Virus record (IMG/VR): IMGVR_UViG_3300034198_007460
Location: 1-36,329 of that record
DNA length: 36,329 bases
Strand: one strand, 5' to 3'
From: a virus
In this document: piece by piece, positions 4,538 through 36,082 of the stretch
Layout: each line of letters begins with the position of its first letter
Position numbering within the stretch: the first letter of the stretch is position 1
Notes under the pieces: generated by a model
Database searches by the model: none
What the model saw: only the letters and a program-made list of their open reading frames with translations
What the model was told of the DNA's origin: nothing
Translations under genes and position numbers: made by a program

Positions 4538-4545
4538 ATCCATTA

Positions 4546-4584: not shown

Positions 4585-4592
4585 GAGTCCAT

Positions 4593-5207: not shown

Positions 5208-5444
5208 CAGGTCATTGGTCGCCCACTTGAAAAGCATGAGCGTGTTCATCACAAGAATGGTGATCGTCAGGACAATCGACCTGAAAATCTTGAGTTATGG
5301 GTTGGTGCAAACAGAAGCAAAAAAGACCCACATGGAGTAAGGCTCGTAGATCAAGTGATAGATATGATTTCATCACTTAAATCTGATGAGTTACTACGCT
5401 TAAAGCAGGCTGTAGAGGATAAATTATATGAACAGTCAAGTTAA
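5208..5444 (+). pseudogene. Detached HNH catalytic half of the endonuclease
   Basis: The same reading frame continues 78 codons after the TAG to TAA at 5442-5444. It encodes QVIGRPLEKHERVHHKNGD and then DNRPENLELW, the complete HNH core (paired His at 5247-5252, Asn at 5256 and 5286). HNH proteins of this type usually read RLVMExxLGRPL across this junction, so the amber codon most likely replaces a glutamate codon through one G-to-T change. No good start codon with a ribosome site exists for this half. The end overlaps the next gene by 17 bases. Confidence 0.75.
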
Positions 5445-5727: not shown

Positions 5728-5736
5728 GGGTGTGTT

Positions 5737-6627: not shown

Positions 6628-6637
6628 GTGATCGGGT

Positions 6638-11499: not shown

Positions 11500-11521
11500 A
11501 GACTGGTTTAACTATCCGGTC

Positions 11522-12112
11522 ATGACAATGGAAAATTTAAATAAAGACGCACTGTTAGGTGCATTAGCGCGTGGTGAATATAGCGAAGATGGCAATCAAA
11601 TCACCTTTAATAAGCTCGGTGGAATCAGTTTTAAGGGTGAATACTTTGATCGTATCAATGGCGGTGAATGGCAGCGCAACGAAAACCTAGTAGTCAATGA
11701 AGGGATTGCACATATCCTGAATGTGGCTTTAGGTGGCAAGGCGAAAGCCGCGAAATACTACCTGGCTTTATTCAGTGGCAGCACAGCACCGGCACCGACT
11801 TGGACAGCAGCAAATTTTGCAGCGGTGGCATCTGAGATCGTTAGCGGTACCGAAGGCTATACCAATGCCACACGTCCTGAATGGACACCGGTGGATACCA
11901 ACGGCAACTCGATTGATAACATGGCGGCAGCTGCTCAACTCACCATTGCAACATCGGGCACTTTAACGGTGACTGGTGCAGCACTGCTGACCAGCTCAAC
12001 GAAGGGCGGCACTACCGGTACGCTGATTTCTGCAAGTAAGTATGCGGTAGCGCGTACCTTCCAGAATGGTGATATTTACGAAATCGGCTATCGCCTAAGC
12101 GCAACGGTGTAA
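11522..12112 (+). CDS. Conserved phage structural protein
   Basis: 196 residues from ATG 11522 (MTMENLNKDALL). An in-frame ATG at 11468 would overlap the previous gene by 32 bases, and one at 11528 is also possible; none has a clear ribosome site. The protein has a charged N-terminus, a segment VVNEGIAHILNVALGG, a strand YYLALFSGS followed by Ala/Thr-rich sequence, and a C-terminus with NGDIYEIGYRLSA. It resembles small phage virion proteins of the type that includes the product at 4130-4537. Its role is unknown. Confidence 0.6.
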   Translation: MTMENLNKDALLGALARGEYSEDGNQITFNKLGGISFKGEYFDRINGGEWQRNENLVVNEGIAHILNVALGGKAKAAKYYLALFSGSTAPAPTWTAANFAAVASEIVSGTEGYTNATRPEWTPVDTNGNSIDNMAAAAQLTIATSGTLTVTGAALLTSSTKGGTTGTLISASKYAVARTFQNGDIYEIGYRLSATV

Positions 12113-12115
12113 CAC

Positions 12116-16010: not shown

Positions 16011-16012
16011 AC

Positions 16013-18535: not shown

Positions 18536-18560
18536 CCCTGTAAGGCTAACGCTTACAGCC
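18536..18560 (+). terminator. Hairpin after the tail fibre-like gene
   Basis: CTGTAAG (18538-18544) pairs with CTTACAG (18552-18558) around a 7-base loop, directly after the TAA stop. No T tract follows, so termination would be weak. Bases 18536-18549 repeat the left arm of the terminator at 3877. A sigma70-like pair, TTGATT (18565) and TATATT (18587), lies between this hairpin and the next gene but is not convincing. Confidence 0.4.
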
Positions 18561-18604
18561 TGTATTGATTAACCATACATGATATTTATATTGGAATAAG
18601 TGTC

Positions 18605-20539
18605 ATGTACGGCTTAAAAAAACGCCCAAAAGATGAAAGTGGACTGATTCAAGGTGCAGGTACTGGCACTTCTGATGATATTAAAAAAAATGTTCCAGCA
18701 GGTAGCTATATTATGCCTGCTGATTCTACTCAGCAGATTGGTACCAATAATTTAAAAAATATGGGGAGTCCCACGCCAGTTAATCTCAGTAACGGTGAGT
18801 TCCAACTCTCGCCTGACCAAGTTCATTCGGTTGGTGTGCAAACACTTGATGCCATGAAAAATCAAACACATGCACCTGTTGATCAACCTCAATTGGGTTT
18901 TAAGCCTGGTCAAAATAAACCTGAGTTATTTTTTGCAAATGGTGGACTGGTACCAAGTGCCTACCCAAGTGCAGATGATATTCGTCGTGCACAACAAAAT
19001 AGAGTTGGTGGGCCACAAATGCGTGATGTCACACCAATTAATCGTCAACTTCCAGCAACATCATCTACACCATCAACAACTAGCTCACCATCATCTAGTC
19101 CAGCGAATCCAGCGCCAACCCAAGGAGGTGGTTTTGGAGCAGGCGTAAGAAATTTCGTTAATAACAGTAAACTTGTAAAAGGCACTGGATATTTAGGAGC
19201 AGCATCGGCCTTATTTGCAAATGCTGCCACACCAAGTGAGGATTATCGGGAACGTTTTGGTTTTGGTGATCAGTCACCTGAAGATTTGGGTACTGTAAAA
19301 GGGTTTGCTAAAGACTTCGGTATCAGAGGATTAGGTTATGCATCAGATTTGGGTAATGCCTTAACTTTTGGACAAGCTGGTCGGTTTTATGCAGATAAAC
19401 AACGTATTGCAAGTGAAGCAAAAGCAGCTCAACCTGAATTTAATAATAAACAAAATAAGCCAAATACTGTTGTAAACAATCCATTTGGTAATAATAAAAC
19501 ACCACCTACTACACAAACACAGCCTGAAGCTCAGACTCCATCAAACTCTGTACAGAACTCTGATCCTTATGCTATTCAGCAAAAAGGAAACAGCTTTAGC
19601 TATGCTAATCCTAGTGCAGCAGCTCAAGCACGAGCAGATGGTATTAGAGAAGGCGAAGGACTAGGATTCAAAGTAAGACCAGTGAATGACCCTCGTGGGG
19701 TAGCAAATTTATTTGCCAATACTCAAGAAATGGGACCGACTGAACAACAGATTCAAAATGCAATCGCTCAACGTGAAATGAATTTAGGCTTGGGTATGCG
19801 AGGTTATGGTAATAATCCTGTACAAGCACCTCAACGTAATGAAGCACAGGAAGCAGAACGTCAAGCTGTAATTCGTGCAGCAAGCACACCGATTGCAGGG
19901 GCAAGAGGATTAACTGCGAATCAAGTCCGTACTTTGTCTGATTTACAGCAAGGTGAGGATAATCGTGCCAATCAACGTTATACCACCGATGCGAACAACG
20001 TTGCTGCTTTACAGCGTGAAGCCATGGGACAAGCTGGACAGAACTATCGTACGGAACTAGGTGAGCAAGGTACCAATAACCGCTTTAATGCAAATTTAGG
20101 TTTTGATGCACAAAAATTCCAAGCGACCAATGATTTAGCGAATCGAGAATTTAATCTTAATGCCACTGAAAAAGGTTTTGGTATTCGTAACTCGGCACGA
20201 TTAGAGAAATTGTACGAGCAATATGATAAGGCTGAAACAGATGAACAACGTCAGTCTATTCAGGAAAAGATTAGCCGATATACAGGTAAAGCTGAATCTG
20301 GTAAAGATCGCTATATGACTGTGGGTGGTGGTCAGGAATGGAATAATGAAGCTATGGCAATGGTGAATAGACCACAGCAGTTATTTGATACTCAGACTCA
20401 ACAGTTCGTTAATACGCCACAAGGCAGCACACAACAACCTTTACAAAATCATATTGATGCCTTGAAGAAAAATCCTGATCAAGCTGCTCAATTTGATGAG
20501 ATTTATGGTCAAGGTATGGCTGCAAGGTATTTAAAATAA
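18605..20539 (+). CDS. Probable internal (ejected) virion protein
   Basis: 644 residues, with GGAATAAG before the ATG. The N-terminal part has a motif seen in internal or ejection proteins of phages: GLIQGAGTGTSDDIKKNVPAG followed by YIMPAD, then a second version, PTPVNLSNGEFQLSPDQV. The middle (about 150-330) is low-complexity, rich in Pro, Ser, Thr, Asn and Gln, around a short Gly/Ala segment (GTGYLGAASALFANAA). The C-terminal third is a long helical, Asn/Gln/Glu/Arg-rich region (AQEAERQAVIRAA, LREAM-like helices). It sits immediately upstream of the giant polyvalent gene, whose N-terminus also looks like an ejection protein, so both may be packaged and injected. Confidence 0.6.
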   Translation: MYGLKKRPKDESGLIQGAGTGTSDDIKKNVPAGSYIMPADSTQQIGTNNLKNMGSPTPVNLSNGEFQLSPDQVHSVGVQTLDAMKNQTHAPVDQPQLGFKPGQNKPELFFANGGLVPSAYPSADDIRRAQQNRVGGPQMRDVTPINRQLPATSSTPSTTSSPSSSPANPAPTQGGGFGAGVRNFVNNSKLVKGTGYLGAASALFANAATPSEDYRERFGFGDQSPEDLGTVKGFAKDFGIRGLGYASDLGNALTFGQAGRFYADKQRIASEAKAAQPEFNNKQNKPNTVVNNPFGNNKTPPTTQTQPEAQTPSNSVQNSDPYAIQQKGNSFSYANPSAAAQARADGIREGEGLGFKVRPVNDPRGVANLFANTQEMGPTEQQIQNAIAQREMNLGLGMRGYGNNPVQAPQRNEAQEAERQAVIRAASTPIAGARGLTANQVRTLSDLQQGEDNRANQRYTTDANNVAALQREAMGQAGQNYRTELGEQGTNNRFNANLGFDAQKFQATNDLANREFNLNATEKGFGIRNSARLEKLYEQYDKAETDEQRQSIQEKISRYTGKAESGKDRYMTVGGGQEWNNEAMAMVNRPQQLFDTQTQQFVNTPQGSTQQPLQNHIDALKKNPDQAAQFDEIYGQGMAARYLK

Positions 20540-20672: not shown

Positions 20673-20707
20673 ACCTGACATGCTATTAGGAGTGTGTCAT
20701 GTCAGGT
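20673..20707 (+). promoter_or_regulatory. Inverted repeat enclosing the ribosome-binding site of the giant gene
   Basis: ACCTGACATG (20673-20682) pairs perfectly with CATGTCAGGT (20698-20707). The right arm contains the ATG at 20699 and the loop holds the AGGAG at 20688-20692. In RNA the start codon would be in the stem with the Shine-Dalgarno sequence in the loop. As DNA it could be an operator. A translational or transcriptional control site is inferred. Confidence 0.5.
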
Positions 20708-21688
20708 TCTCAAGATAAAAATCCATTCGCTGACCCAAACTACGGTAAAGATTTAAATTCTAATGGGAGTGGTAATCCTTTTTCTGATCCTGATTATGGA
20801 AAGGAAGAAGAAAAAGGTTTTCTTGGCCAAACAAAAGATCATGCAGTCTCCTTTCTTGGCAAGGGTGCGGTAGGTGTAGGTGAGGTAGCAGTCGGTTTAA
20901 GCGACATGATGTCCGATGGTGCTACAGGTAAAATACTTTCCGAAAAACTTGGGTATGATCCAAAAGCAGCCAAAAATGTAATGACAGGCTGGCAGTCTGA
21001 ACAATACCAACAACAATTAAAAGATTCTGCAAATATTGGCAATCGAAAAATTGAGGAAGGAGACGACTTCGCAACAAAGGTTGGTAAAAAATTCGACAAT
21101 GCGGTTGATATAACAAAAAATGCCATCAGCAACCCATCACTTATCACAAATACCGTTGCTGAATCTCTCCCTTCAATGTTTTTAGGTGGTGCATTAGGTC
21201 GTGCTTCTGGTATAGCCAAACCCGTTGTAGCTGGTGCAGTTGGTGAGGGTGCAGTTATGGCAGGTAGCCAAGCTGAACAAATTCGCCAAGAAACTGTAGA
21301 TGGACGCTTAACCGCAGATCAATCTTTAGCAAGTGTTGGTACGGGCGCATTGGGTGGCTTGTTTGGTTATGCTGGTGGTCGTCTTGCTCAGAAAATGGGC
21401 TTATCAGATGTTGATACAGCCATGCAAACAGGGCGCTTAACCACGCAACAAGTGGGTGAAGAAATTGCCAAGACACCGATGAGAGCAATTCCAACTGCTG
21501 TGATCAAAGGTGCTATTTCGGAAGGCTTTTTAGAAGAATTACCTCAATCCGTTTCAGAGCAAATTTTACAGAACTTGGCATTAGATAAGCCTTGGCATGA
21601 TGGTGTTGAAAATGCAGCAGTCATGGGTACTTTGGCTGGTATGGCAATGGGCGGTACAGTCAGTGGTGTGGGTAAAACTGGTGATTGG
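20699..21688 (+). other. Giant protein: ejection-like N-terminal region
   Basis: Residues 1-330. Two copies of NPFxDPxYGK stand at residues 8 and 26. From about 150 there are Gly/Ala-rich hydrophobic helices (SMFLGGALGRASG, VGTGALGGLFGYAGGRLA), and near 275-325 a segment with SEGFLEELPQSVSEQI and a final AAVMGTLAGMAMGG. This pattern recurs in large internal virion proteins of podoviruses that insert into or cross the host envelope. It suggests the whole chain is carried in the particle. Confidence 0.5.
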
Positions 21689-24600
21689 TGGAATAGTCGA
21701 TCTGACACAGGACCTCAAGATAACCAACAGCAATCAGGATCACCTAATCTACCATCAGCACCATCACAATTTGGCTCAAATCCAGATAGTGCTTTGACTG
21801 GCGAATATATTCCACGTGGAAATGCATCACAGGGCGACAATCAAGGTCGCACAGCTTTTGTTTATGATCAGCCATCAATGGATGCTGATAATTTACTAAA
21901 CAATAATGGCTTTGATTATGGCGGTGCAGCAAATGGTAATCCAACCAGTCCAGATACGCCACCAGCACCGAACGGCAACTATTTTGACGATGATTATGGC
22001 AGTGAAGCGGCCTTTGATGATTTATTGAATGCTGTACCACCAGCCAACCAAACACCTTCACAGCAAATGGGGATTAATCCCAATGATGGCCCTATATCAT
22101 CCGCAGCAGCTTTGGCAGTGGATAGTGGCGCATCTCCGATAGCTCAATTGGGGTACACACCAGAGCAACAGACGCAAGAGCAAAGTAATACACCAATCAG
22201 TGATGCTGTGCCGTCAAACTATCAATCATTATTAGGAAGTCAGAACGATGGGCAGCCTTTTAATGCAAACCTTGAAGATGCAACAGCACAGCAAGGGAAT
22301 ACACAAGCTGACATGGGTGGAGCAATTGAAACAGATACAGCGCAAACAACATCAGCGCAAACTGTTCAACCAATCTTAGGCCAAGATGGTAAAAACAAAT
22401 GGTTTGGCACACAGGAAAAAGCGCAAGCATTCATTGATAAGAAAGATTTAGGCAATGATTATCAGGTAGTTCAAGATGGTAAGCGTTTTGAGATTCAGCC
22501 TAAAGCCAAATCTCCAGTTCAAGATGACGCATATTTTCAAAGTCAATTAGATCAACTCAATAAACAACGCGCACAGTTTGAATCGTCTGGCGATTACGCA
22601 AATGCCGAAAAAGTTTACGCTGAAATGCAAACAGTGGCGCGTGAATGGCAAACCAATTCAAGCACAGATACGCCTACAGCCAAGCGAGCTGAACCATCTA
22701 AGGGTGCATCTGATAATGCTTGGGCGGATTTTTACAGAAAAAATCGCAACATGATAAGTGAAGAACTTTTCACGGGTGGTCATCAAGATCGTAATGCGCT
22801 TGAAGAAGCTACTCCTGAGATTCAATCACGTCATGCTCACGGCATGGCTAAGGCAACTCCTGCTGCTGCGGTTCGTGATCTGAAAGATATTTTAGAAAAT
22901 GGCATAGATCAGAATCGCGGACAAGGGCGTTTGTTCACAGCACCTCTAAGTCAGGGAAAATTGACAGCCGAACAGCGTAGCGCAATGTCAGCATCAGGCA
23001 CATCGTCAGGTAGTGCTTATAGTGATGGTGCTTTTACTTTGATCGCCAAAGAGGGTGTTGGGGATATTCGGTCTGTGTCTGAAATTGATGCAGTCATGGT
23101 AAACAGTGCAGTACCTCAAGAAGTTGTGAATGGTTTACGCCAAGACTTTCCAAACATGAAGTTTGGGTATGCAAAAGAATTGCCTAGCTTGTTATCAGGT
23201 GGTAAACAGTCAAACAATGCACAGGCTCAAGTTGCTGAACTTGAACAACAGCTTGCGAATGAAAAAAGTGTAGCGAAAAAGGCACAGATCCGTAAACAGA
23301 TTGCAGAGTTGCAAAACGGTTTGACAGAACAGGCGCAAAGCACTGTAAGTTTGAATCAACCACAAAACACTACTGTAGAAAACCTGAGTGGCGAATTTAA
23401 AAAAATAGAAGAATCTACTAACCCAATTAAGAAAATGGCTTTAAAAGGCATATCTTCTCAGGTTCTTAGTGGTAATCGCTCAGAAGTTGAGGATGTTATT
23501 AAATCGCTTGGAATTACAGAAGATGAGATTGCTTCAATTCAACCTGATCCGAAAGATAATTTCTTGGATACTGATTTTAAATACCTGCCAACAGCAGACA
23601 AGGTTGGAGTTGGTAGCGATAAAGAGCGTGCTATTTTCCTACCAAAAACAAAAGGTAAAAAAGGACAGTGGCAAAAAATTGAAGATGATTATGTCTTAGC
23701 TATGGATGGTGGTCGTTTTGTTGATCTTCCGAAAATGACCAGAGAGCAGGCAATCCAGTTGTCTAATCGTGATGGTGAAAACAAATACTATGATGTTGTG
23801 CCGCGTGCCTATGCTGATCATCTTGGATACAAAGCAGTGGCAGATAATAAAAATCTTACAACTGAATCTCAACCACAAAACACTGCGTCTGAGCATCCTG
23901 TAAATAAATGGCAAGCTGAAATGCAAGAAGCCTTATCCAAGGCTGATCCTGAGCATCCACTTTTTAAAAAACTACAAGCTAGTGCTAAGAACGGATTACG
24001 CTCTGTTTCAGATCGAGCGGTGGCATTACGTCAGGCACGTGAGATTGAGAAGAAAGCGGAAGCACAGGAACAAAAATATCTACCTGAAAAGCCAAAAGCA
24101 AAAGTCGAACCTTCTAAAAACACGTTAGTATCCGATGATCGTGCAGCGGAATTACGCGCTCGTCTAAAAGCCAAGCTATCACAACTGAATAGTGGTATTG
24201 ACCCTGAAATCATGGCTATTGGTGCGGAACTTGCGGTTTACCATATTGAACGTGGTGCACGTAAGTTTGCAGCATTAGCTAAAAATATTGCGAATGATCT
24301 TGATGTGAGTGTCGAAAAGATCCGTCCATACCTGCGTAGTTGGTATAACGGTGCACGTGACATGATGGAGGATATGGGTGCGGATATTCAGGGCATGGAT
24401 AGTGCAGAAACCGTTCGTGCAGAATTAGCAAAACTCGATAATCCACAACAACAGTCAAATACAGTACAGAGCAAAACAGAAACGGTTGTTACACCTGCAG
24501 GTCGTGAATTTGAGGTGCGCCACAAAGTCGTTGAAGCAAGCGACTTAATCACATCAAATCTGGACAGCGGTGCAATTAATGCAGAATACCCACAAGCCTT

Positions 24601-27600
24601 ACAACCACGTGACCGCACCACTTTAAAATCCGTTACTCAGATCAATGATATTGCCAACAAGCTTAACCCTAAATTATTGGGTGATAGTGCAAGCTCTACC
24701 AATGGTGCGCCTATCGTGTCGTCTGACAATGAAGTTGAAAGCGGTAATGGTCGTACACTGGCGATTCGCAAAGCCTACCAAACAGGCAAAGCAGACGCAT
24801 ACAAAGCATGGTTAGCTGAACAGGGCTATGATGTGGCCAACATGCAGCAACCGGTATTGGTCCGTGAACGTATCACGCCAATGAATATGGCCGAGCGTGT
24901 AGCCTACACAACAGAATCGAATGAGCGTGACACACTGGATATGAGTCCAAGTGAACAAGCTATGTCGGATGCGCCAAAGGTCATGGATATTTTGCACCTG
25001 GTACAAGGTGGCAGTTTTAACAACACGGCCAATCGTGATTTTGTGAATGCCTTTTTAACTGGTGTAGCATCTAAAAACGAGCGCGGTACCATGCTCGATA
25101 AAGATGGGGTATCACTCACTCAGGACGGATACCGCCGTATTGAATCAGCCTTGCTTGCAGCTGCTTTTAATGATGCTCAAATTATTAGTCAGGTGATTGA
25201 ATCTAAAGACAGCGATATTAAGGCGATTGGTAATGCCTTGATTGAAGCGGCACCACAATGGGCACAAGTCCGTAAAGGTGTGCAAGATGGCATTTTGGTT
25301 GAAGGCGTGAACGTCGAAGCCAATTTGGTTGAAGCGGTCCATCTGGTACGTAAGGCACGTCAGCAAAACTTATCTTTATCTGAAATGTTGAATCAGGACG
25401 ATATATTTGACGGCAGCATTGACCAGGTTACGAAAGACTTTATTAGTATTTTTTATAGTGGTGATAAACTCAACAAAGCACGAAGCAGCCAGAAAGTTGC
25501 AGACGCATTAAAGTCGTATGCGCAATTGGCTATGACTGCAAAAGCATCTCCAAATCTTTTCGGTGATGCGCCTTTAAGCAATGAACAAATTTTAGGACAA
25601 GTACATGAAAAACTCAGACAAAGTGAAGCCGAAAAGCAGCAAGACTTCTTCTCTAGCCAAGGAGCTAATGACACAAACCCTGGAAAATCTAGCCAAGTCG
25701 GACAAGGACCTGAAACTAGCAAGCCAGATGCAGCAGCGTCGCAATCCGCAACAGTAACACGTACACAGGTTGAGCGTCCGAAGAACGACACAACACTTGT
25801 TCAAGATTGGGGTGTTCAATATGTAGATGGTTGGGCAACCAATTCAGAACATGCAGGTAAAATTTATACTGATAATGGCTTAAAAGATGGCGTAAAAGCA
25901 GCATTCCTGAAAGATTCTAAAAAGTATCTTGAAGCAGTGCAAAAGAATCTGGAAAGCATTGGTTATGAACTTCACCTAGACAAGAAAGGCAAGCCGCAAA
26001 AAGTTAGCGTGAATGAATCAGGCGTAGCTGGTAGTGGTGAAGTATCGCTTTATATCCGTGAGCCGGTGACTGGTGTTAATGTTTGGATGAAAATTGGCGA
26101 TGGATTCCCAGGTTCTCATCCACAACGTATCGGCATTTTGTATCGTGCCACGATGAAGGAAAGCGATAAACAGGCCAGTGGTTTTGGTATTGAGAACTCA
26201 GGCAACCAGTATGCCGGTGCTCAGACTTCTGCCTTTGAACTGGCGCAAATGATTGATGATATGGTCACTGCGCTTGTGAAGCGTAACCAGAACAAGGAAA
26301 ACAGCAATGAACAATCTGCAAGCAGCCCACTTAATCCGCAAGGAACGTCAGATGTACGAGGAGGACGAGGACGTGCTCCACAATCGAATGATCCACAAGC
26401 GAATAATACAAATGTGGAAACAGGAGTATCCGCAGGAAGTGGCACGACTGGAACAACGCAATCTACTGGACGATCTAGCGTTCGTGGTGCAAGAGAGAAT
26501 GTGGCGAACGATGCAGGAGTATCAGGACGGGGGAATGAATCCAGCAGACGCGCGGGAGCAAGCGGAACTACAACATTATCAGTTGATCAGCCCACAAGAT
26601 TAGAGTCACCAGCAGCAGTAGCCAATACTGCGACTGATTTCTACATGGCTGACCCAGATATTATTTTCGGTGGTAGCCAGAAACAGCGTTTTGACAAGAA
26701 TAAAAGAGCACTCGAGCTATTAGAAGAACTCAACGCAGAAGGCCGTCAAGCAACAGCAGAAGAACAAGTGGTGTTAGCAAGTTACACTGGTTGGGGTTCG
26801 TTTGGCCAAGACCTATTCCAAGGTACATGGAACACGCCTGTTTTTAAAGATGGTTGGAAAGATGAAAACCTTTGGCTGCGTGAAAAATTAGGTAAAGAGT
26901 CTTGGGAATCAGCAAAGGATTCCGTTCTGAATGCTTTCTTCACTGATCCATACACCGTCCAAGCAATGTGGTCTATGGCTGAAAAGATGGGCTTTATTGG
27001 TGGGCGTGTTCTTGAACCGGCGGTAGGTACTGGTAACTTTATCAGTTTAATGCCGATGCACATTAAACAGCGTAGCCAGGTGACAGCGATTGATCTGGAC
27101 ATTACCACCGCTGCGATTGCAAAACAGTTATTCCCTGAAAGCAATGTGCAGAACATGCCATACCAGAAGTCTAAAACACCAGACAACTTTTATGACTTGG
27201 TGATTTCTAACGTGCCTTTCTCGAATGATGTGAAGATTGCAGACCGTCGTTATAACCAATTCAATCCAAACTTACACGATTACTACTTCCTAAAAATGCT
27301 GGACCAGGTGCGTCCTGGCGGTATCGTGATGGCGATTACTTCATCCGGTACGATGGACAAACAATCCGAAGTGATTCGTCGTGAGATGGCCAAGCAATCC
27401 GAACTGATTACATCGATCCGTTTACCTGCAGGTGCGTTTAAAGATTTTGCCGGCACTAATGTTGTAACCGATATTATTGTGCTGCGTAAACGTACTGAAC
27501 CTTTGACCATGACACCGGATGCAGATTGGATCGGATTATCCGAAGTTAAAACGTCAACTAAGCCAGTGAAGGTCAATAGCTTTTACGCCAATAACCTACG

Positions 27601-30600
27601 TAATGTTTTAGGGACCATTGATTATAAAGGCGGTGATCCACGTTTTGCTGGCATGACGGTACTTAGTAATGGTGAAGCCTGGCTGAAAAAGGAACTTAGC
27701 CAATTATCTGATCTGGTGAGTGAAAACACATTATTGCCACGTCATAACCATGATTACCTGACTTATTATGCAAACAAGGCTGGTGAGCGCACCAACACAT
27801 TAACCATGAGTAATGGTGAATTGATGTTTGTCTATGGCGACCAAATGGTTAAAGCTACTGATATTCATGAATACAAAATCAAGGATGCCAAGAAAACCGC
27901 ACAACGTCAGAAATCAATTGAAGACCTGGTAGCGATTCGTAAAGCCTACACAGATTTGACCGATGCAGAACGCATCGAACAGGACAATGTAGAGCAGCTG
28001 CGCAAGACCTTGAATAAACTTTACCAGGCATATACCAAAGAACATGGTCCATTGGCTGATTCATTTGGTTTGCAATACTTCAAGAAGATTGAAGATGCGT
28101 ATTACTACAGTCTTGCAGCACTTGAAAACAACGGTAAACCGGCTGAGATTTTAAAGCGAAGTGTTGTTCGTGGAGCCGCTGCTCTTGATAACCCAACAGT
28201 ATCGGATGCCTTTGTGGTGGAACGGAATAAATCCGCTGCGCCTAGTCTGGCCAACATTGCAAAAATGGCTCAGGTATCAGAGGATCAGGCACGTGCTGAA
28301 CTACTAGAAAAGGGTGCGGTATATGTATTGCCGAATGGCGATATTATGCCAAGCGATATGTACCTATCTGGAAATGTTCGCCAAAAATTAGAAGAAGCAC
28401 AAAACGCAGTTGCAGAAGGCAATACTGACCTGCAGCGTAACGTCGATGCACTCAAAGAGATCATTCCAGAGGACATTCCATACTTCAACATTGAAGCCAA
28501 AATGGGTGCAACCTGGGTGCCATTGTCGGATTATGAAAAATATATTTCACACATGCTCGGTATGACCGATAGCAACGGCATTACTGTGACATTCCCATCA
28601 GGTAAGTGGAAAGTCAAACTTGATCCTATTGCAGCACGTCGTACCGAAGCCACGACCAACTATGGCTCTAAATATAAGTCATTCCAAACGGTGGTATCTG
28701 CTGCACTGTCTAACCAGAACATTACTGTGAAGTATAAAAATTCTGATGGTTCTGAAAGTGTAGATGTGCAAGCAACGGAAGAAGTGAACGAAAAAATTTC
28801 CAAGATTAAGGAGGATTTTGCAACCTGGTTATGGTCCGATCCTGAACGCCGTGTGCAATTAGAGAAGGAATATAACCATGCATTCAATGCTTGGGCGACA
28901 CCTAAATATGATGGTTCGTTCATGTCGATGCAGGGTATGGCGTTAAGCCTGGGTAATGGTCCGTTTAACTTGCGTCAGCACCAACAGAATGCCATCTGGC
29001 GAGCGATTGTCAATCGTCGTTCCATTAATGCGCATGAAGTGGGTACCGGTAAAACCTTTACCATGGGTGGTATTGCACTTGAATCACGTCGCTATGGTAT
29101 TGCTAAAAAGCCATTGATCCTAGCCCACAATGCCAACAGCGCAGCCGTAGCCAAAGAAATTCAGATGATGTATCCATCGGCGCGTGTACTGTTTATCAGT
29201 GAATTAGGTAAAGCAGTCCGTCAGATCCGTATGCGTCAAATTGCTAATGATGATTGGGATGTAGTGGTGATGCCACACTCGATGATTGATAAGCTCACTT
29301 TGTCTGAAGAAACCTTGATGGCTATGGCTGCTGATGATATTGCAGCACTAGAAGCAGAGATTGAAGAAGCACTGGCCGAAGAAGGTGGCGCAACCCTGGA
29401 TGAAGTCCTGGCAATGAACAGCGACGACGTGAATAAAAAAATGGGCTTTAAAAACCCAACTGCCAAGCAGCTTGCTAAACAACGTCTGAAACTTTTAGAG
29501 GACATTCAAAAGCAAGCCATGGATTCAAGTAAAGCCGATGCGGTGAACTTTGAAGAACTTGGTGTAGATATGATCATGGTTGATGAAGTGCATGAGTTTA
29601 AAAAACCAAGCATTGCTACACGTATGAACATGAAGGGCTTAAACACCAGTAGCAATAAACGCTCGGTGAACTTACAGCTGCTCACACGTTATGTACGTCG
29701 CATGAACAATGGCGGCAATGTGCATACCTTTACCGGTACACCGATCACCAATACCTTGACTGAGATCTACCATCAAATGCGTTATGTGATGGAAGAAGAA
29801 ATGCAAAAACTCAATGTCGCGGCCTGGGATGGTTGGTTTGGTAGCTTTGCAACAGACATTACCGATATTGAACTTTCTGCTACTGGTGAATACCAATTGG
29901 TGACACGTTTAGCCGGATTCGTAAACGTGCCTGAACTGCGCAAAATGATCGGGCAGTTTATGGATATTGTTTTTGCCAACGACATGCCAGAAATGCAGCC
30001 ACGTCGAACAAATACCGGCAAAGTATTATCAGATGAAGGTTTAAGTGAAGCAGAAAAAGCCGAGTTGCTAAATGGCCGTACCGAAGGTGCCAAAGATCGT
30101 CCGTATAAAAAAGTGATTAACGTCACCACGGAAATGTCACCGAAACAAGAGAAAGCCCTAGAGCGTATTCAAGGACTAGCTAAGGAATGGGAACAAGCTA
30201 CCGGTAAACAAAAACGTGAATGGATGCGTGACGGTGATCCACGTGCACCGTTATCCATCAGTACCGCAGCCAAGAAAGCCAGTTATGACGCACGTATTGG
30301 TGATCCTGAATACATTGGCCAGGAAGGTAAGACCGAAGATTTTGAAATGTCTAAGGCTTCCCAGGTCGTGAAAAACGTCATGGAGGTGTACCACTCTCAT
30401 CCGTTGGCCAGTCAGGTGATTTTTGCTGATACCGGTTATAACACGACAACGGAACGCAGTACCGGCAAGAAAGACGCGAAAGGCAAGACCATTCGTGAAC
30501 GTGTCAAAGTCTTTTCACCGATCCGTGACATTGTAGAACGCCTGGTACAACAAGGCATTCCACGTGAACAGATTGCCATTGTCGATGGCTCTGTGAAAGC

Positions 30601-33600
30601 CGAAGCACGTAAGGCCATTGCCGATAAAGTCAATAGCGGTGAAATCAGGGTGGTGATTGGCCTGACACAAACGCTTGGTGTAGGTGTGAACATGCAGCGT
30701 AATTTACGTGCCATGCACCACCTGGACGCGCCATGGATGCCGGGTGAACTTGAACAGCGTAATGGTCGCGGTTTACGCCAGGGCAACCAATGGAACACGG
30801 TACTTGAGTATCGTTACATCACCGATAAGTTAGACGGTAAATCATGGCAAGTCTTGGCCATTAAGGACCGTTTTATCAATGCCTTTATGAAAGCCGATGG
30901 TAATGTTCGTTCGATTGAAGGTGATGCTGCTGCGGATAACGGTGAAGATAATGCAGGGGATATTATGTCCTCATTCTCAGAAGCTTCTGGCGACCCACGT
31001 GTATTGCAACGGATCAAGATGAAAGAAAAACTTGAGAAGCTGCAACGAAAAGAGCGTTTGCATACACAGGGTATAGCGGATATGAAGCGTACCATTGGCA
31101 ACACGCAACGTCGTATTGCTCGTTTTGATGAGCAAATTGCCGAGTATGAAAACAATGCTGTTTTGGATCGTATTCAAAAACTAATGCAGTCACAGTCTGA
31201 AAACTTCTCCGTAGAGGTGGACGGCAAGAAATACGACAAGCACAAGGAAGCATCGGACGCGATTCAACAATTCATTGCCGACCATGTGCGTACTGGCTCA
31301 TCACGAATCACATTAGGAAAGTATGGCAATGTCACTATGTCGGTTGAATGGGATAGCCTGCAACCACAAGCAACATTATCGATGAAGATTGGGCCGATTG
31401 AATTTAAGGGTAATACCTTACGTGGCATCGAGGGTAAGTTACGTGGTGTTAGCCAAGATATTCAAGCTATTGAAGATGCCAAAGCATCGGCGCAACAGAC
31501 CATTGATAGCCTGTCAAAATCAGTCGAGCAGCCGTTTGGACAATCTGATCAATTGGCACGTACTCAAAAGCAACTTGAAAATATTGAGCAAGACTTGGAA
31601 AGCAACCCGGTAGCACCGCCGATCTGGTTACGCCGTGGTACGCCAATTGATTCAGAAGTGTATTACAAAGGCAAACTGTTTATCGTGTCTGGGCACCGTT
31701 ATACCAATGACGGTTGGTTTGTATCAGCAGATGATGCAAAAGGGACCATTGAGATTCCGTACCTGGAAGCAACCGACAGTGTAGGTATGCCGATTTATGA
31801 GGAAAGAGAATTTGAAGCACCAAATATTAATGACAAAACAAAGGCAGACAATGATGTAAAAAATGAAATTAATGACTATAGCCGTGACAAATTAAAACCT
31901 GATAACGAGCGTAGAGGTACTTCACCGCTGGATACTACCTTTAATGCTTTATCAGTTGTCAGTGCTACTCGACGAGTCCTTTCTGTTCTTCAACATCTCA
32001 AACTGTCCGCTACACAAGATTCGTCGATTAGTGGTCGAATTACTGTTGGAAGTGCTGGAATTAAGGGGGGATTTGATGTTCAAGTTATTTCTAGCTTTGA
32101 TGGACTTCCTACGGAAATACAAAAAGATGCCACATACCAAGATGATAAAGGTAATACCCAAAACTATGATGTTAGTGCTGTTTGGCATAAGGGTACACTC
32201 TATGTAGTTGCTGATCAGGTATATGGAGATAATGAAAAACAGATTACTACATTTGATGCTTATGAGGAAATGTTAGCGCATGAAATCATTGGCCACTTTG
32301 GTGTACAACAGATATTTGGCCAAGAATATAAAACTAAGTTGCAACAACTCTATAATGCTTTAGGTGAGCTTGAAGGTATCCGCAAAATCGCCAGCAAAAA
32401 TGGTGTAAATATGGCACAGTTTGAAAGTGCATATATTGAGCCATATACCCAAGGTGCGAAAGAAGGAATTTATGCTGAATCAGATGTACAACAAGCCTTG
32501 GTTGGAGAATTATTTGCTTTTGTTGCACAAAATGCTAAGTCACGTCCTTTTGTACGTCAAAAGCTAAAAGAAGTTATTGGATATATTCGTCAGTGGTTCC
32601 GTGATCGTGGCTTTGATAAATTCCTTTCACGTTACAATGATGCCGATTTGATGATGTTTTTGTCAGAAGCTCGTAAGGCTGTAGTTGATCGAAGCTATTT
32701 TGGTAAATATAAAAATCAAGAATTTTCATCTAAGAACGATTCTGATACTCCACTTTATAGCCGTCGTACTAAGAGCAATTCAGGCTCTACAGTTCAGCAA
32801 GTAAGGGGTGTATTGATTGATCGCTTTGGTAAAGACACGATCAAGGAGTTAGAGCGTCAGGGTAAACTTGAGATTATTCAAGACTATTCTGTTGAGGGTG
32901 TGGAGGGCTTCTATTACAACGGTAAAGCGGTACTCGTTGCATCGAATCTGACTGCTGAAAGCACAGTGCCAACATTCTTACATGAGTTGGGTGGTCATGC
33001 AGGTTTTCAGAATATGATGACTCAAAAGCAATATAATGAATTGATGAATCAATTTAATAAATTGGTTGATCAGGGCAATCCTGTTGCTATGGCTGCAAAA
33101 TTACTTGCGGAACGTGAACAAGGTTCTGAGCGTCAACATCTAGAGTATTTGCCATATCTATTAACACTCTCATCAACTATGCAACAACGTAATGTAGTAC
33201 AGCGTAATGCACTACAAAAACTTATAAACAATTTAGTGACGTATGTTAAAGCAACGCTATTTGATAATTTTGGAATAAATCTCAACCTCAATCCAAATGA
33301 CATAGTTGCACTTGCTGAGCGAATGATTGAGAAATCCTCATATAATGCTGAAAATGCTACTTCACCTCTGTATAGTCGTCAGTTTTTTGATAATACAATC
33401 AATAACTTAAGTGAAAGTATTAAACATTTATCTGCAAAGTCTATCAAGGATAAAACAGGTTATAAATCTACTGATTGGTTGGGTATTGGCTTATCAGCCT
33501 TAGGTCGTCGACAACTTACTGAAATTTACAGCAAAATTTTACCGCAGTTAAACAAATATAATGAATTAGCTGCTCAAATGGATGCTGATAAGAACGACGC

Positions 33601-36082
33601 TGGTGCTGAAGCTGATAGTATCGTGCGTGAATGGGGAAATTTAAACGATGAAGAAGCTTTAGCAAATGTAATGCATGATTCGACTTTAGCAAAAATTGAC
33701 CCAACCAAACCCTATGTTAGTGGAGATAGTATTTCAAAATATAAGCAATTACGGGATGCCTATAATTCACTATCACCAGAAGCTCAGGCAATGTATTTAA
33801 AAGCGCGTGATGCTTATAAAAAGCACTATGCAGAAGTACATCAAGCAATTAAAGAGCGCATCTTACGTTCTGAATTATCCAATCAGAAAAAAGCGGATTT
33901 ACTTAAACAGATGGATGATAACTTCTTCGGATCTATCAAAGGGGTATATTTCCCATTGGCTCGTTTTGGTAAATATGTAGTGGTGATGCGTAACCAAAAT
34001 GGTGAAGTTGAAAGCGTTAGCCGTGCCGAAACCATGGGAGAAGCACAGGCATTACGTTCTGAACTTATACAGAAATTTCCACACTATAAAGTTAATAAAG
34101 TGAAATTAGATAAGGAATACAACAAATCCAGAGATGCTGTTGGTCGTGGGTTTATGACCAGTCTATTTGCAGAGGTAGATAATTTAGGCCTATCGACTGC
34201 GGAACGAACTGAATTTGAAGATACTCTAAGTCAGCTTTATTTATCTTCTATGCCTGATTTGAGTTGGGCAAAACATGGGATTCACCGTAAGGGTACAGCA
34301 GGGTTTAGCCAAGATGCACGTCGGGCATTTGCACAGAATATGTTTAGTGGTGCTAATTATCTTGCTAAGTTACGCTATGGTGATCAGTTAGCACAGCAGC
34401 TTGATGAGATGCAAAAGTATGCTGATGAACAGTTTGAAGTGGATGAGGATTACGATCAGCGATCTGCTCAAAGTGTCATCACTGAAATGAATAAACGTCA
34501 TGACAACTTAATGAACCCTAAAGGGCATCCTTTATCAAGTGCATTAACCAGCTTGGGCTTTATTTATTACCTGGGGCTATCACCAGCAGCAGCTATGGTC
34601 AACTTATCGCAGACAGCATTGGTGGCTTATCCATTGATGGGTGCTAAATGGGGCTTCGATAAAGCGGCAGATGAATTACTGAAAGCATCGAATGACTTTA
34701 GAAAGGGGGTAGAGTTTCACAAGGTGAAGTGGGAAGGATCAAAAACTGACCTTTACAAAACAATTAGCTCCGATATTTCTAAATTTCTAAATAAAGATGA
34801 AAAACAGGCTTATGAAGATGCTGTGGCGCGTGGCGTGATTGATGTCACTCAGGCACATGATTTAGCAGGAATTGCACAGGGTGAAGATAGTGGTGTGATG
34901 TGGAAGACACGCCCGATTATGCGTGCAGCGAGTGTCATGTTCCATAGTGCTGAAAGATTTAACCGTGAAGTTACTTTTATTGCAGCATATCGTCTAGCGC
35001 GTCAATCAGGTGAAAATCACGATTCAGCATTTGATCAAGCTGTAGATGCGACCTACAAAGGACACTTTGATTACAGTTCTGGCAACCGTCCACGTATCAT
35101 GCAAGGCAACGTTGCCAAGGTTCTTTTACTGTTTAAACAGTTTGGTCAAAACATGCTTTACACATTGGCTCGTCAGACCTATCAGTCCATTAAAGGTGAA
35201 ACGGAAGCTGAACGAAAAGAAGCTCGTAAATCACTTGGGGCTATTTTGGCAATGCACGCAACTTTTGCTGGTGCGCTTGGGTTGCCTATGGTTGGAATGT
35301 TGTTGTCGGTTGCATCTTGGATGGGCGGGGATGACGACGAACCTTGGGATGCGGAAGTGGCACTGCGTAACTATCTTGCTGAAGCATTCAGCCCGACCAT
35401 TTCAAATATACTGATGAAAGGTGCGCCACGCGGTATTGGTGTGGATATTTCTAGTCGTGTTGGTATTAATAATCTTTTATTACCAGACGTACAAGAAGGG
35501 TTAGAAGGTAAAAAATGGTGGGATTCAGCATCAGCAGCAGCTTTGGGGCCTATTGGCGGGATTGGGGCAAATATCGCAAAAGGTGCACAGGAAATTTCAG
35601 AAGGGCATAATCTACGTGGAGTGGAAAGTATGCTGCCAGTGTTTCTTAAAAACTTTGCTAAAACCTATCGCTATGCTGATGAGGGTGTCCAAGACAAAAC
35701 TGGTGTATCTATCATGGATGAAGTTAGTTCAATGGATTTACTTGTCCAAGGTATGGGGTTCTCACCATCTGATGTTCGTACAGCCAGTGAAGGCAAAACA
35801 GCAATTTATCAGCTTAACCGAAAGCTTAATGAGCGTCGTAGTCGTTTAATGGCTTTATGGTCACGAGCGAAAATGATGGATGACCAACAAGAGATGGATG
35901 AAATTTGGGAAGAAATTCAAGGTTTCAATGACAAAAATCCATCACGTCGTATAACTAGAATGAACCTTAATCAAAGTTATCGTAATCGCCAACGTCGTAT
36001 AGATCGTGCGGAAGATGGCATATATTTGTCACGGAATCGTCAAGATGCACGTGAAGCTGGTTACTTTGCTTTTGGTGAATAA
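20699..36082 (+). CDS. 5127-residue polyvalent phage protein (ejection, ParB-like, methyltransferase, helicase, two zincins)
   Basis: One open frame of 15.4 kb with a strong AGGAG site six bases before its ATG. Domains in order: an ejection-like N-terminus with two NPFxDPxYGK repeats and Gly/Ala-rich helices (1-330); Gln/Asn-rich linker; a small module near 568-602; an unnamed domain at about 670-836; a domain with AIGAELAVYHIERGARKFA (1165-1215) common in polyvalent proteins; DdrB-like ParB (1262-1634); an unnamed domain (1703-1860); low-complexity linker (1866-1970); methyltransferase (about 1980-2268); helicase (2753-3416); coiled coil (3440-3485); two zincins (HEIIGH 3861, HELGGH 4095); PLARFG (4419); hydrophobic C-terminus. 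Polyvalent proteins of this kind are packaged and injected with phage DNA to counter host defences (P1 Dar system). The fusion into one chain of about 560 kDa is unusual. Whether it is cleaved is unknown. Confidence 0.85.
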   Translation: MSGSQDKNPFADPNYGKDLNSNGSGNPFSDPDYGKEEEKGFLGQTKDHAVSFLGKGAVGVGEVAVGLSDMMSDGATGKILSEKLGYDPKAAKNVMTGWQSEQYQQQLKDSANIGNRKIEEGDDFATKVGKKFDNAVDITKNAISNPSLITNTVAESLPSMFLGGALGRASGIAKPVVAGAVGEGAVMAGSQAEQIRQETVDGRLTADQSLASVGTGALGGLFGYAGGRLAQKMGLSDVDTAMQTGRLTTQQVGEEIAKTPMRAIPTAVIKGAISEGFLEELPQSVSEQILQNLALDKPWHDGVENAAVMGTLAGMAMGGTVSGVGKTGDWWNSRSDTGPQDNQQQSGSPNLPSAPSQFGSNPDSALTGEYIPRGNASQGDNQGRTAFVYDQPSMDADNLLNNNGFDYGGAANGNPTSPDTPPAPNGNYFDDDYGSEAAFDDLLNAVPPANQTPSQQMGINPNDGPISSAAALAVDSGASPIAQLGYTPEQQTQEQSNTPISDAVPSNYQSLLGSQNDGQPFNANLEDATAQQGNTQADMGGAIETDTAQTTSAQTVQPILGQDGKNKWFGTQEKAQAFIDKKDLGNDYQVVQDGKRFEIQPKAKSPVQDDAYFQSQLDQLNKQRAQFESSGDYANAEKVYAEMQTVAREWQTNSSTDTPTAKRAEPSKGASDNAWADFYRKNRNMISEELFTGGHQDRNALEEATPEIQSRHAHGMAKATPAAAVRDLKDILENGIDQNRGQGRLFTAPLSQGKLTAEQRSAMSASGTSSGSAYSDGAFTLIAKEGVGDIRSVSEIDAVMVNSAVPQEVVNGLRQDFPNMKFGYAKELPSLLSGGKQSNNAQAQVAELEQQLANEKSVAKKAQIRKQIAELQNGLTEQAQSTVSLNQPQNTTVENLSGEFKKIEESTNPIKKMALKGISSQVLSGNRSEVEDVIKSLGITEDEIASIQPDPKDNFLDTDFKYLPTADKVGVGSDKERAIFLPKTKGKKGQWQKIEDDYVLAMDGGRFVDLPKMTREQAIQLSNRDGENKYYDVVPRAYADHLGYKAVADNKNLTTESQPQNTASEHPVNKWQAEMQEALSKADPEHPLFKKLQASAKNGLRSVSDRAVALRQAREIEKKAEAQEQKYLPEKPKAKVEPSKNTLVSDDRAAELRARLKAKLSQLNSGIDPEIMAIGAELAVYHIERGARKFAALAKNIANDLDVSVEKIRPYLRSWYNGARDMMEDMGADIQGMDSAETVRAELAKLDNPQQQSNTVQSKTETVVTPAGREFEVRHKVVEASDLITSNLDSGAINAEYPQALQPRDRTTLKSVTQINDIANKLNPKLLGDSASSTNGAPIVSSDNEVESGNGRTLAIRKAYQTGKADAYKAWLAEQGYDVANMQQPVLVRERITPMNMAERVAYTTESNERDTLDMSPSEQAMSDAPKVMDILHLVQGGSFNNTANRDFVNAFLTGVASKNERGTMLDKDGVSLTQDGYRRIESALLAAAFNDAQIISQVIESKDSDIKAIGNALIEAAPQWAQVRKGVQDGILVEGVNVEANLVEAVHLVRKARQQNLSLSEMLNQDDIFDGSIDQVTKDFISIFYSGDKLNKARSSQKVADALKSYAQLAMTAKASPNLFGDAPLSNEQILGQVHEKLRQSEAEKQQDFFSSQGANDTNPGKSSQVGQGPETSKPDAAASQSATVTRTQVERPKNDTTLVQDWGVQYVDGWATNSEHAGKIYTDNGLKDGVKAAFLKDSKKYLEAVQKNLESIGYELHLDKKGKPQKVSVNESGVAGSGEVSLYIREPVTGVNVWMKIGDGFPGSHPQRIGILYRATMKESDKQASGFGIENSGNQYAGAQTSAFELAQMIDDMVTALVKRNQNKENSNEQSASSPLNPQGTSDVRGGRGRAPQSNDPQANNTNVETGVSAGSGTTGTTQSTGRSSVRGARENVANDAGVSGRGNESSRRAGASGTTTLSVDQPTRLESPAAVANTATDFYMADPDIIFGGSQKQRFDKNKRALELLEELNAEGRQATAEEQVVLASYTGWGSFGQDLFQGTWNTPVFKDGWKDENLWLREKLGKESWESAKDSVLNAFFTDPYTVQAMWSMAEKMGFIGGRVLEPAVGTGNFISLMPMHIKQRSQVTAIDLDITTAAIAKQLFPESNVQNMPYQKSKTPDNFYDLVISNVPFSNDVKIADRRYNQFNPNLHDYYFLKMLDQVRPGGIVMAITSSGTMDKQSEVIRREMAKQSELITSIRLPAGAFKDFAGTNVVTDIIVLRKRTEPLTMTPDADWIGLSEVKTSTKPVKVNSFYANNLRNVLGTIDYKGGDPRFAGMTVLSNGEAWLKKELSQLSDLVSENTLLPRHNHDYLTYYANKAGERTNTLTMSNGELMFVYGDQMVKATDIHEYKIKDAKKTAQRQKSIEDLVAIRKAYTDLTDAERIEQDNVEQLRKTLNKLYQAYTKEHGPLADSFGLQYFKKIEDAYYYSLAALENNGKPAEILKRSVVRGAAALDNPTVSDAFVVERNKSAAPSLANIAKMAQVSEDQARAELLEKGAVYVLPNGDIMPSDMYLSGNVRQKLEEAQNAVAEGNTDLQRNVDALKEIIPEDIPYFNIEAKMGATWVPLSDYEKYISHMLGMTDSNGITVTFPSGKWKVKLDPIAARRTEATTNYGSKYKSFQTVVSAALSNQNITVKYKNSDGSESVDVQATEEVNEKISKIKEDFATWLWSDPERRVQLEKEYNHAFNAWATPKYDGSFMSMQGMALSLGNGPFNLRQHQQNAIWRAIVNRRSINAHEVGTGKTFTMGGIALESRRYGIAKKPLILAHNANSAAVAKEIQMMYPSARVLFISELGKAVRQIRMRQIANDDWDVVVMPHSMIDKLTLSEETLMAMAADDIAALEAEIEEALAEEGGATLDEVLAMNSDDVNKKMGFKNPTAKQLAKQRLKLLEDIQKQAMDSSKADAVNFEELGVDMIMVDEVHEFKKPSIATRMNMKGLNTSSNKRSVNLQLLTRYVRRMNNGGNVHTFTGTPITNTLTEIYHQMRYVMEEEMQKLNVAAWDGWFGSFATDITDIELSATGEYQLVTRLAGFVNVPELRKMIGQFMDIVFANDMPEMQPRRTNTGKVLSDEGLSEAEKAELLNGRTEGAKDRPYKKVINVTTEMSPKQEKALERIQGLAKEWEQATGKQKREWMRDGDPRAPLSISTAAKKASYDARIGDPEYIGQEGKTEDFEMSKASQVVKNVMEVYHSHPLASQVIFADTGYNTTTERSTGKKDAKGKTIRERVKVFSPIRDIVERLVQQGIPREQIAIVDGSVKAEARKAIADKVNSGEIRVVIGLTQTLGVGVNMQRNLRAMHHLDAPWMPGELEQRNGRGLRQGNQWNTVLEYRYITDKLDGKSWQVLAIKDRFINAFMKADGNVRSIEGDAAADNGEDNAGDIMSSFSEASGDPRVLQRIKMKEKLEKLQRKERLHTQGIADMKRTIGNTQRRIARFDEQIAEYENNAVLDRIQKLMQSQSENFSVEVDGKKYDKHKEASDAIQQFIADHVRTGSSRITLGKYGNVTMSVEWDSLQPQATLSMKIGPIEFKGNTLRGIEGKLRGVSQDIQAIEDAKASAQQTIDSLSKSVEQPFGQSDQLARTQKQLENIEQDLESNPVAPPIWLRRGTPIDSEVYYKGKLFIVSGHRYTNDGWFVSADDAKGTIEIPYLEATDSVGMPIYEEREFEAPNINDKTKADNDVKNEINDYSRDKLKPDNERRGTSPLDTTFNALSVVSATRRVLSVLQHLKLSATQDSSISGRITVGSAGIKGGFDVQVISSFDGLPTEIQKDATYQDDKGNTQNYDVSAVWHKGTLYVVADQVYGDNEKQITTFDAYEEMLAHEIIGHFGVQQIFGQEYKTKLQQLYNALGELEGIRKIASKNGVNMAQFESAYIEPYTQGAKEGIYAESDVQQALVGELFAFVAQNAKSRPFVRQKLKEVIGYIRQWFRDRGFDKFLSRYNDADLMMFLSEARKAVVDRSYFGKYKNQEFSSKNDSDTPLYSRRTKSNSGSTVQQVRGVLIDRFGKDTIKELERQGKLEIIQDYSVEGVEGFYYNGKAVLVASNLTAESTVPTFLHELGGHAGFQNMMTQKQYNELMNQFNKLVDQGNPVAMAAKLLAEREQGSERQHLEYLPYLLTLSSTMQQRNVVQRNALQKLINNLVTYVKATLFDNFGINLNLNPNDIVALAERMIEKSSYNAENATSPLYSRQFFDNTINNLSESIKHLSAKSIKDKTGYKSTDWLGIGLSALGRRQLTEIYSKILPQLNKYNELAAQMDADKNDAGAEADSIVREWGNLNDEEALANVMHDSTLAKIDPTKPYVSGDSISKYKQLRDAYNSLSPEAQAMYLKARDAYKKHYAEVHQAIKERILRSELSNQKKADLLKQMDDNFFGSIKGVYFPLARFGKYVVVMRNQNGEVESVSRAETMGEAQALRSELIQKFPHYKVNKVKLDKEYNKSRDAVGRGFMTSLFAEVDNLGLSTAERTEFEDTLSQLYLSSMPDLSWAKHGIHRKGTAGFSQDARRAFAQNMFSGANYLAKLRYGDQLAQQLDEMQKYADEQFEVDEDYDQRSAQSVITEMNKRHDNLMNPKGHPLSSALTSLGFIYYLGLSPAAAMVNLSQTALVAYPLMGAKWGFDKAADELLKASNDFRKGVEFHKVKWEGSKTDLYKTISSDISKFLNKDEKQAYEDAVARGVIDVTQAHDLAGIAQGEDSGVMWKTRPIMRAASVMFHSAERFNREVTFIAAYRLARQSGENHDSAFDQAVDATYKGHFDYSSGNRPRIMQGNVAKVLLLFKQFGQNMLYTLARQTYQSIKGETEAERKEARKSLGAILAMHATFAGALGLPMVGMLLSVASWMGGDDDEPWDAEVALRNYLAEAFSPTISNILMKGAPRGIGVDISSRVGINNLLLPDVQEGLEGKKWWDSASAAALGPIGGIGANIAKGAQEISEGHNLRGVESMLPVFLKNFAKTYRYADEGVQDKTGVSIMDEVSSMDLLVQGMGFSPSDVRTASEGKTAIYQLNRKLNERRSRLMALWSRAKMMDDQQEMDEIWEEIQGFNDKNPSRRITRMNLNQSYRNRQRRIDRAEDGIYLSRNRQDAREAGYFAFGE
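24482..25600 (+). other. Giant protein: DdrB-like ParB-superfamily domain
   Basis: Residues about 1262-1634. The signature is FEVRHKVVEASDLITSN, then YPQALQPRDRTTLKSV, LNPKLLGDS, and VESGNGRTLAIRKAY with the ParB-type GNGR at 1349-1352. The family includes the DdrB protein of phage P1's anti-restriction set, and ParB folds bind DNA and nucleotides. The helical part up to about 1634 (SEQAMSDAPKVMDILHL and following) is typical of the longer phage version. Confidence 0.8.
26307..26603 (+). CDS. Nested small gene in the +1 frame inside the giant gene
   Basis: 98 residues from ATG 26307 to TAG 26601-26603, with AAGGA at 26294-26298, eight bases before the ATG. The product looks like a real helical protein, rich in Glu, Arg and Gln with regular hydrophobic spacing: MNNLQAAHLIRKERQMYEED, IIQMWKQEYPQEVARLE, NLLDDLAFVVQERMWRTMQ, GMNPADAREQAELQHYQL. 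In the main frame the same bases encode a Ser/Gly/Asn/Thr-rich linker (residues 1870-1968), the composition expected if that frame is the passenger. The site lies between the DdrB-like and methyltransferase-helicase parts, which are usually separate genes in related elements. Function unknown; I infer it is a retained gene overprinted when its neighbours fused. Confidence 0.6.
   Translation: MNNLQAAHLIRKERQMYEEDEDVLHNRMIHKRIIQMWKQEYPQEVARLEQRNLLDDLAFVVQERMWRTMQEYQDGGMNPADAREQAELQHYQLISPQD
26639..27502 (+). other. Giant protein: DNA N6-adenine methyltransferase-like domain
   Basis: Residues about 1981-2268. Motif I, the SAM-binding loop, reads LEPAVGTGNF at 2105-2114. The catalytic motif reads SNVPF at 2170-2174 where active enzymes usually have NPPY/F. 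The prelude YTGWGSFGQDLF and the later HDYYFLKMLDQVRPGGIV are typical of DarB-type methylase-helicase proteins. SAM binding looks intact; the Pro-to-Val change may weaken or abolish catalysis, although NVPF occurs in this subfamily. Confidence 0.82.
28955..30946 (+). other. Giant protein: SF2/SNF2-type helicase domain (DarB-like)
   Basis: Residues about 2753-3416. Walker A HEVGTGKT is at 2779-2786, the DEVH box at 2962-2965, motif III TGTP at 3012-3015, a motif V-like IGLTQTLGVGVNMQ, and motif VI QRNGRGLRQG at 3353-3362 with both arginine fingers. All ATPase motifs are intact, so the domain is probably an active DNA translocase. A charged coiled coil follows at about 3440-3485. Combined with the upstream methyltransferase fold, this is the DarB layout, which protects incoming phage DNA from type I restriction. 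Confidence 0.88.
31886..32668 (+). other. Giant protein: first zincin metallopeptidase domain
   Basis: Residues about 3730-3990, with the zinc-binding HEIIGH at 3861-3866 in EEMLAHEIIGHFGVQQ. Upstream strands (VSAVWHKGTLYVVADQVYG) and the downstream ALVGELFAFVAQNA helix, whose Glu may be the third ligand, match the metallopeptidases found in polyvalent proteins. Substrates are unknown; candidates are host defence proteins or the giant chain itself. Confidence 0.75.
32765..33364 (+). other. Giant protein: second zincin-like domain, bounded by PLYSR motifs
   Basis: Residues 4023-4222, with HELGGH at 4095-4100 in FLHELGGHAGFQNM. VEGFYYNGKAVLVASNLTA precedes it in the same relative place as in the first zincin. 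A Glu-rich helix (AKLLAEREQGSERQHLEYLPYLLTL in three pieces) follows and could supply the third ligand. PLYSR stands just before (4018-4022) and just after (4223-4227) the module. Confidence 0.68.
33365..36082 (+). other. Giant protein: PLxRFG and hydrophobic C-terminal region
   Basis: Residues 4223-5127. The region is mostly helical. YFPLARFGKYVV (PLARFG at 4419-4424) is the motif that names PLxRFG phage proteins. Two hydrophobic stretches, at about 4612-4652 (LGFIYYLGLSPAAAMVNLSQ) and 4846-4872 (AILAMHATFAGALGLPMVG), could insert in membranes. This type of C-terminus is found in large polyvalent proteins of tailed phages and may act in packaging or envelope passage. Confidence 0.6.

Follow-up and report, generated by a model that had tools for sequence, protein, structure and literature searches.

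Polyvalent proteins of phages are single large chains, often of more than 2,000 aa, in which several biochemically unrelated domains are joined; they are packed into the particle and enter the cell together with the DNA. Those catalogued in 2017 reach 12,242 aa, and their parts include a methylase-SNF2 dyad, several metallopeptidases (MPTases) per chain and an HEXXXH variant of the MPTase motif (Iyer et al. 2017, PMC5512222). In phage P1, the methyltransferase-helicase (DarB, 2255 aa) and the ParB-type domain (DdrB) are carried on separate proteins. DarB is an anti-restriction factor that is packaged at about 40 copies, and its first 30 residues suffice for the entry of a reporter into the capsid (PMC9024508). 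Single-chain versions of 3,700-5,145 aa have been recorded in BcepIL02 (4667 aa), USP_18 (4947 aa), Parlo (3764 aa) and 8P (5145 aa). Several of these large proteins have been placed in the particle. For JC1 gp69 (4515 aa), 51 unique peptides were detected in particles purified on CsCl (PMC9144972, Table 6), H66 gp60 carries a GenBank note that it was verified in the virion by mass spectrometry, and the 8P counterpart is annotated as a 'structural protein'.

Here, we describe a giant gene in a DNA stretch of 36,329 bases (the window), which is a whole virus record. Membership in the PLxRFG group is judged on a C-terminal domain of about 680 residues. NCBIfam model NF032893 (tail-700, PLxRFG domain-containing; curated cutoff 100 bits) matched residues 4415-5115 of the giant protein with an E-value of 5e-272. 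PHROG 10089 ('DarB-like antirestriction', E = 0) and phrog_30335 span most of the protein, and LPD39 and ddrB-ParB, two Pfam families of polyvalent proteins, were both matched. Proteins of the DarB type shield DNA against type I restriction. The giant protein has one mark of this type, a methyltransferase fused to an SNF2 helicase and homologous to DarB; the alignment with P1 DarB covers three stretches within residues 2077-3400, at 25-28% identity. Several biochemically unrelated domains thus lie in one large chain, and by these matches the 5127-aa protein is assigned to the phage polyvalent proteins, in the PLxRFG / DarB-like antirestriction group. The features of the window are collected in Table 1.

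Table 1. Features of the window and the evidence for each (residues are those of the giant protein)
Feature	Coordinates	Strand	Residues	Basis
Upstream virion genes: major head protein, head proteins, head closure Hc3, tail-like proteins	392..20539	+		PHROG
Giant polyvalent protein gene	20699..36082	+		5127 aa, single open frame
Twin N-terminal peptide, NPFADPNY and NPFSDPDY	20720..20797	+	8-15 and 26-33	Shuffle test
Conserved N-module	20801..22138	+	35-480	Alignment; PHROG virion RNA polymerase N-region and phrog_30335
Unnamed conserved domain	24083..24475	+	1129-1259	About 40% with BcepIL02 and USP_18; PHROG 938 match
ddrB-like ParB domain	24497..24871	+	1267-1391	PF18763, E 2.2e-36
DNA methyltransferase domain	26927..27493	+	~2077-2265	Pfam Methyltransf_11/Eco57I
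SNF2-type SF2 helicase	28964..30784	+	2756-3362	PF04851 (ResIII) and PF00271 (Helicase_C)
Metallopeptidase-like domain 1, HEIIGH at 32279-32296	31868..32653	+	3861 (motif)	Motif, conservation
Metallopeptidase-like domain 2, HELGGH at 32981-32998	32726..33328	+	4095 (motif)	Motif, conservation
Joint	33329..33340	+	~4212	Insert of ~150 aa here in many relatives; window without it
Conserved C-module: LPD39 and PLxRFG 'tail-700'	33437..36043	+		PF18858, E 7e-45; NF032893, 904 bits

The first-pass annotation had held the one-chain fusion to be remarkable beside the separate Dar parts of P1. This was wrong, as fusion is usual in the PLxRFG / DarB-like group. Its idea that delivery and anti-restriction are combined in one chain agrees with the published reading of the family but is not novel. 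The giant chain itself is what is expected for its family, real but ordinary. In length, it resembles the other PLxRFG / DarB-like proteins (3.8-5.1 thousand aa). Its ends have homologues in H66 and USP_18 and its core in BcepIL02 and USP_18, with about 25-57% identity in aligned blocks, whereas the cargo arrangement and the host differ. Like P1, the window has a methyltransferase-helicase and a ParB-type domain, but on one chain. Compared with the polyvalent proteins of PMC5512222, the combination of ParB, methyltransferase-SNF2 helicase, HEXXXH MPTase and LPD in one chain and the late virion context are alike. The Acinetobacter set adds fixed ends between which the cargo is exchanged, as well as a twin peptide at the N-terminus, of which no description was found in the portion of that paper covered here.

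The gene was read as a single uninterrupted frame of 5127 codons, and this stands, since there are zero internal stops. The computed mass is about 566 kDa, close to the earlier figure of about 560 kDa. It is highly improbable that degradation or mis-assembly has run separate genes together here. Among the relatives, the nearest is a prophage in an Acinetobacter towneri assembly, whose 5145-aa frame is 94% alignable to the window protein. Codon comparison over this alignable part gave a dN of 0.092, a dS of 0.480 and a dN/dS of 0.19, with dN/dS below 0.6 in all 250-codon bins and only 0.006-0.05 in the helicase bins. Pseudomonas phage 8P (5145 aa, size from coordinates) and USP_18 (4947 aa) also have long single coding sequences. 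Because an intact frame under this constraint recurs in an independent assembly, and because of the 8P and USP_18 lengths, an assembly error joining separate genes is excluded for practical purposes. The gene is broken in two relatives, by an in-frame stop inside the ADP-ribosyltransferase (ART) domain in L074 and by a frameshift after the N-module in L075, and it is annotated as two genes in F116. We rejected the first two as natural gene splits, given the nature of the breaks, and the F116 form as well, in which a sequence error seems likely because H66, which is close to F116, carries one intact gene. In another relative, L073 (1058-19900), the open frame runs to about 6,400 aa and exceeds that of the window.

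Most of the parts listed in the first-pass annotation were recovered, namely the N-module, ParB domain, methyltransferase and helicase. The N-module consists of Gly/Ala-rich helices followed by a low-complexity linker. Residues 97-335 match the N-region of the PHROG 'virion RNA polymerase' (E = 1.7e-15), and identity to the Pseudomonas phages H66, F116 and USP_18 is 48-49% (49% for H66 gp60). Its predicted structure was poor (pLDDT 44) and unusable. From its sequence, the N-module may be an entry or ejection-like module. The PHROG match and the character of a giant ejected virion protein are shared with the N4 virion RNA polymerase-like proteins, from which the window protein differs in that no RNA polymerase domain was matched beyond the N-region in Pfam, PHROG and NCBIfam scans. 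Further along, the ddrB-ParB domain has GNGR at residue 1349, and the helicase has Walker A at residue 2782 and DEVH at 2962. Active N6-adenine methyltransferases have NPPY/F as motif IV. Here, motif IV reads NVPF (residue 2171), as it does in P1 DarB (NVPFG), and methylation by this domain is therefore putative. A sequence search with the methyltransferase-helicase stretch for a solved homologue found none.

In the C-module, LPD39 lies at residues 4247-4419 (Pfam). The 'hydrophobic C-terminus' proposed earlier was weak: two marginal hydrophobic stretches were found (4616-4634 and 4854-4872), but the region is mostly helical in the AlphaFold model (mean pLDDT 57). This model resembles those predicted for large polyvalent proteins and for an 'Internal virion protein D'; a PDB fold search with it gave no match. 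The two putative metallopeptidases show up as strongly conserved HEXXXH motifs, and a Pfam scan of the giant protein gave no peptidase match at either of them. The motif of domain 1 is kept in 14 of the 15 relatives having the block (the second His is lost in L022), and HELGGH of domain 2 is intact in all 24 relatives aligned there. An MPTase with HEXXH or HEXXXH is a common, though not a required, trait of polyvalent proteins, and at the motif level the window protein has it. The two sites would fit the published hypothesis that polyvalent proteins process themselves. A repeated '[ILV][RY][FY]SR' was considered as a processing site and rejected, as no protein has more than one occurrence, which lies where the insert near ~4212 ends, and the window has none.

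The giant gene lies after head and tail genes, and the order is similar in USP_18 and H66, where holin and lysis genes follow it. JC1 gp69, BcepIL02 gp70, H66 gp60 and the USP_18 and 8P proteins are likewise encoded where the virion genes end, ahead of the lysis genes. The window is probably a fragment of a phage because most long related records are about 60 kb and its start lies inside the head genes. The genome is mosaic, with head genes 97-100% like those of L020 and L072 and tail genes 63-96% like those of L017, L021 and L029. Megablast of the first 25 kb against phages and of the start of the giant gene against plasmids returned nothing. Two other genes were noted in the upstream region. 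At 4593-5340 there is a gene that seems to encode an HNH-like endonuclease and contains an HTH-like segment (the HNH part was judged by eye; Pfam gave a weak HTH alone); its frame ends early at 5207, coding continues in another frame, and the gene looks frameshifted. At 6638-10330, a 1230-aa protein of PHROG 11272 (unknown function) reads as a series of numerous short, degenerate repeats containing 'FG' turns and has no Pfam match.

To see how the giant protein is built, it was set against about 30 relatives taken from IMG/VR and from bacterial genomes (L numbers), nearly all from Acinetobacter where the host is named. Almost all of them share the N-module, to about residue 480, and the C-terminal region, taken from 3724 or 4010 onwards. 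The middle is not shared in this way: by manual count of the 30 relatives with both ends available for judging, 7 have the methyltransferase-helicase core and 23 lack it. Nearly all of the scanned cargoes without it carry an inorganic pyrophosphatase (InPase), some adding ddrB-ParB, LPD1 or LPD5, and many having a different HEXXH motif. The nearest relative changes along the chain. The N-module of the window (residues 40-320) is 94% identical to L015 and 68% to L005, its C-module is 93% identical to L005 and 62% to L015, and its cargo is absent from both of these and 89% identical to L072, whose ends reach 62-66%. Across pairs of proteins, N-module identity is a weak guide to C-module identity (r = 0.26), and neighbouring blocks are more closely correlated (r = 0.67-0.70). 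Since the N-module, cargo and C-module differ in their nearest relative, these comparisons show that blocks are shuffled within one gene, whose protein is a chassis with exchangeable cargo. L008 10784-11260 is an example of the insert at the joint near residue 4212; the single insert scanned is an ADP-ribosyltransferase (ART-PolyVal).

The N-termini tested come from the window and from relatives within L004-L030, L063-L075, L085 and L088. In all 31 of them, that of the window included, an 8-residue peptide is doubled within the first ~36 residues. Against 300 shuffles per N-terminus, the copy pair had a P of 0.003, the floor of the test, in 30 N-termini and of 0.007 in one; as the phages share ancestry, these are not 31 independent cases. 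About eight mutually unrelated peptide types were seen: NPFxDPxY, KPFTGxLD, NQIDWxxG, FDPSTAK, NPFxQFV, KPWEQNW, KPWESF/KPWEEF and the L073 type. H66 gp60 has KPWEEF twice (read by eye), and the pair was not seen on inspection of the Shewanella Y11 and BcepIL02 N-termini, nor was an obvious twin tag at that of P1 DarB. The type switches on top of similar N-modules. Four types are divided among L005, L020, L024/L072 and L008, whose N-modules share 89-96% identity. The window and L015 also have unlike types, at 94% N-module identity, and a further type is found in A. towneri, whose N-module closely resembles that of the window. Summed within proteins, the two copies differ in codon at 66 of 172 shared residues. 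The copies therefore did not arise by recent duplication, and the peptide seems to have been retained.

Peptide type tracks with the adjoining N-module (P = 0.0065) and also shows associations with the 644-aa gene (P = 0.015) and with the 840-aa gene (P = 0.03), all nominal P values. No association was found with the MCP (n = 11), the tail genes or the C-module (the portal gene is outside the window). These associations fade with distance, so linkage explains them, and no partner gene for the peptide types was identified. By analogy with P1 DarB, the twin peptide suggests a candidate packaging, docking or capsid-targeting tag.

Taken as a whole, the giant protein is very probably a virion-packaged PLxRFG / DarB-like polyvalent protein from a temperate Acinetobacter phage. 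The phage of the window is known from its sequence, and packaging is carried over from the homologues. The giant protein would be made late, together with the head and tail genes, and its loading into the particle may be helped by the twin N-terminal peptide. It could then be ejected with the DNA through the N-module. The methyltransferase-helicase would track the incoming DNA and shield or mark it against restriction, like P1 DarB, while the ParB-like domain may work on the same DNA. The two putative HEXXXH peptidases near the C-terminus may part the chain before or after entry.

An unlikely alternative role for the protein is mainly structural, in which it serves DNA entry (ejection) and the methyltransferase-helicase is a translocation motor that pulls the genome in, not an anti-restriction device. 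The conserved parts of the giant protein are indeed its N- and C-modules, the former matches the PHROG of virion RNA polymerases, which are themselves ejected proteins, and the NVPF motif could be read in the same way. However, a motor should not be replaceable, yet the helicase is missing from 23 of 30 relatives, mostly with a pyrophosphatase cargo in its place. The homologue P1 DarB is, moreover, an anti-restriction factor (PMC9024508). We therefore prefer the packaged antirestriction protein over the entry motor.

What is new here is comparative evidence for exchangeable blocks behind a short doubled front-end peptide in Acinetobacter phages. We propose, tentatively and with some doubt, that the protein is an injection vehicle built from cassettes, in which the type-switching twin peptide would be the loading address, the N- and C-modules would load and enter, and the middle would be a traded payload. 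Polymorphic toxins trade their toxic ends. If the proposal is true, the payload would be traded by phage recombination in a somewhat similar way, and this branch of the family, the H66 virion protein included, would use the twin tag as a general packaging signal. If the fixed ends, exchangeable middle and twin tag hold, they would offer a simple route to the packaging signal of polyvalent proteins, and payloads could be read by comparing close relatives.
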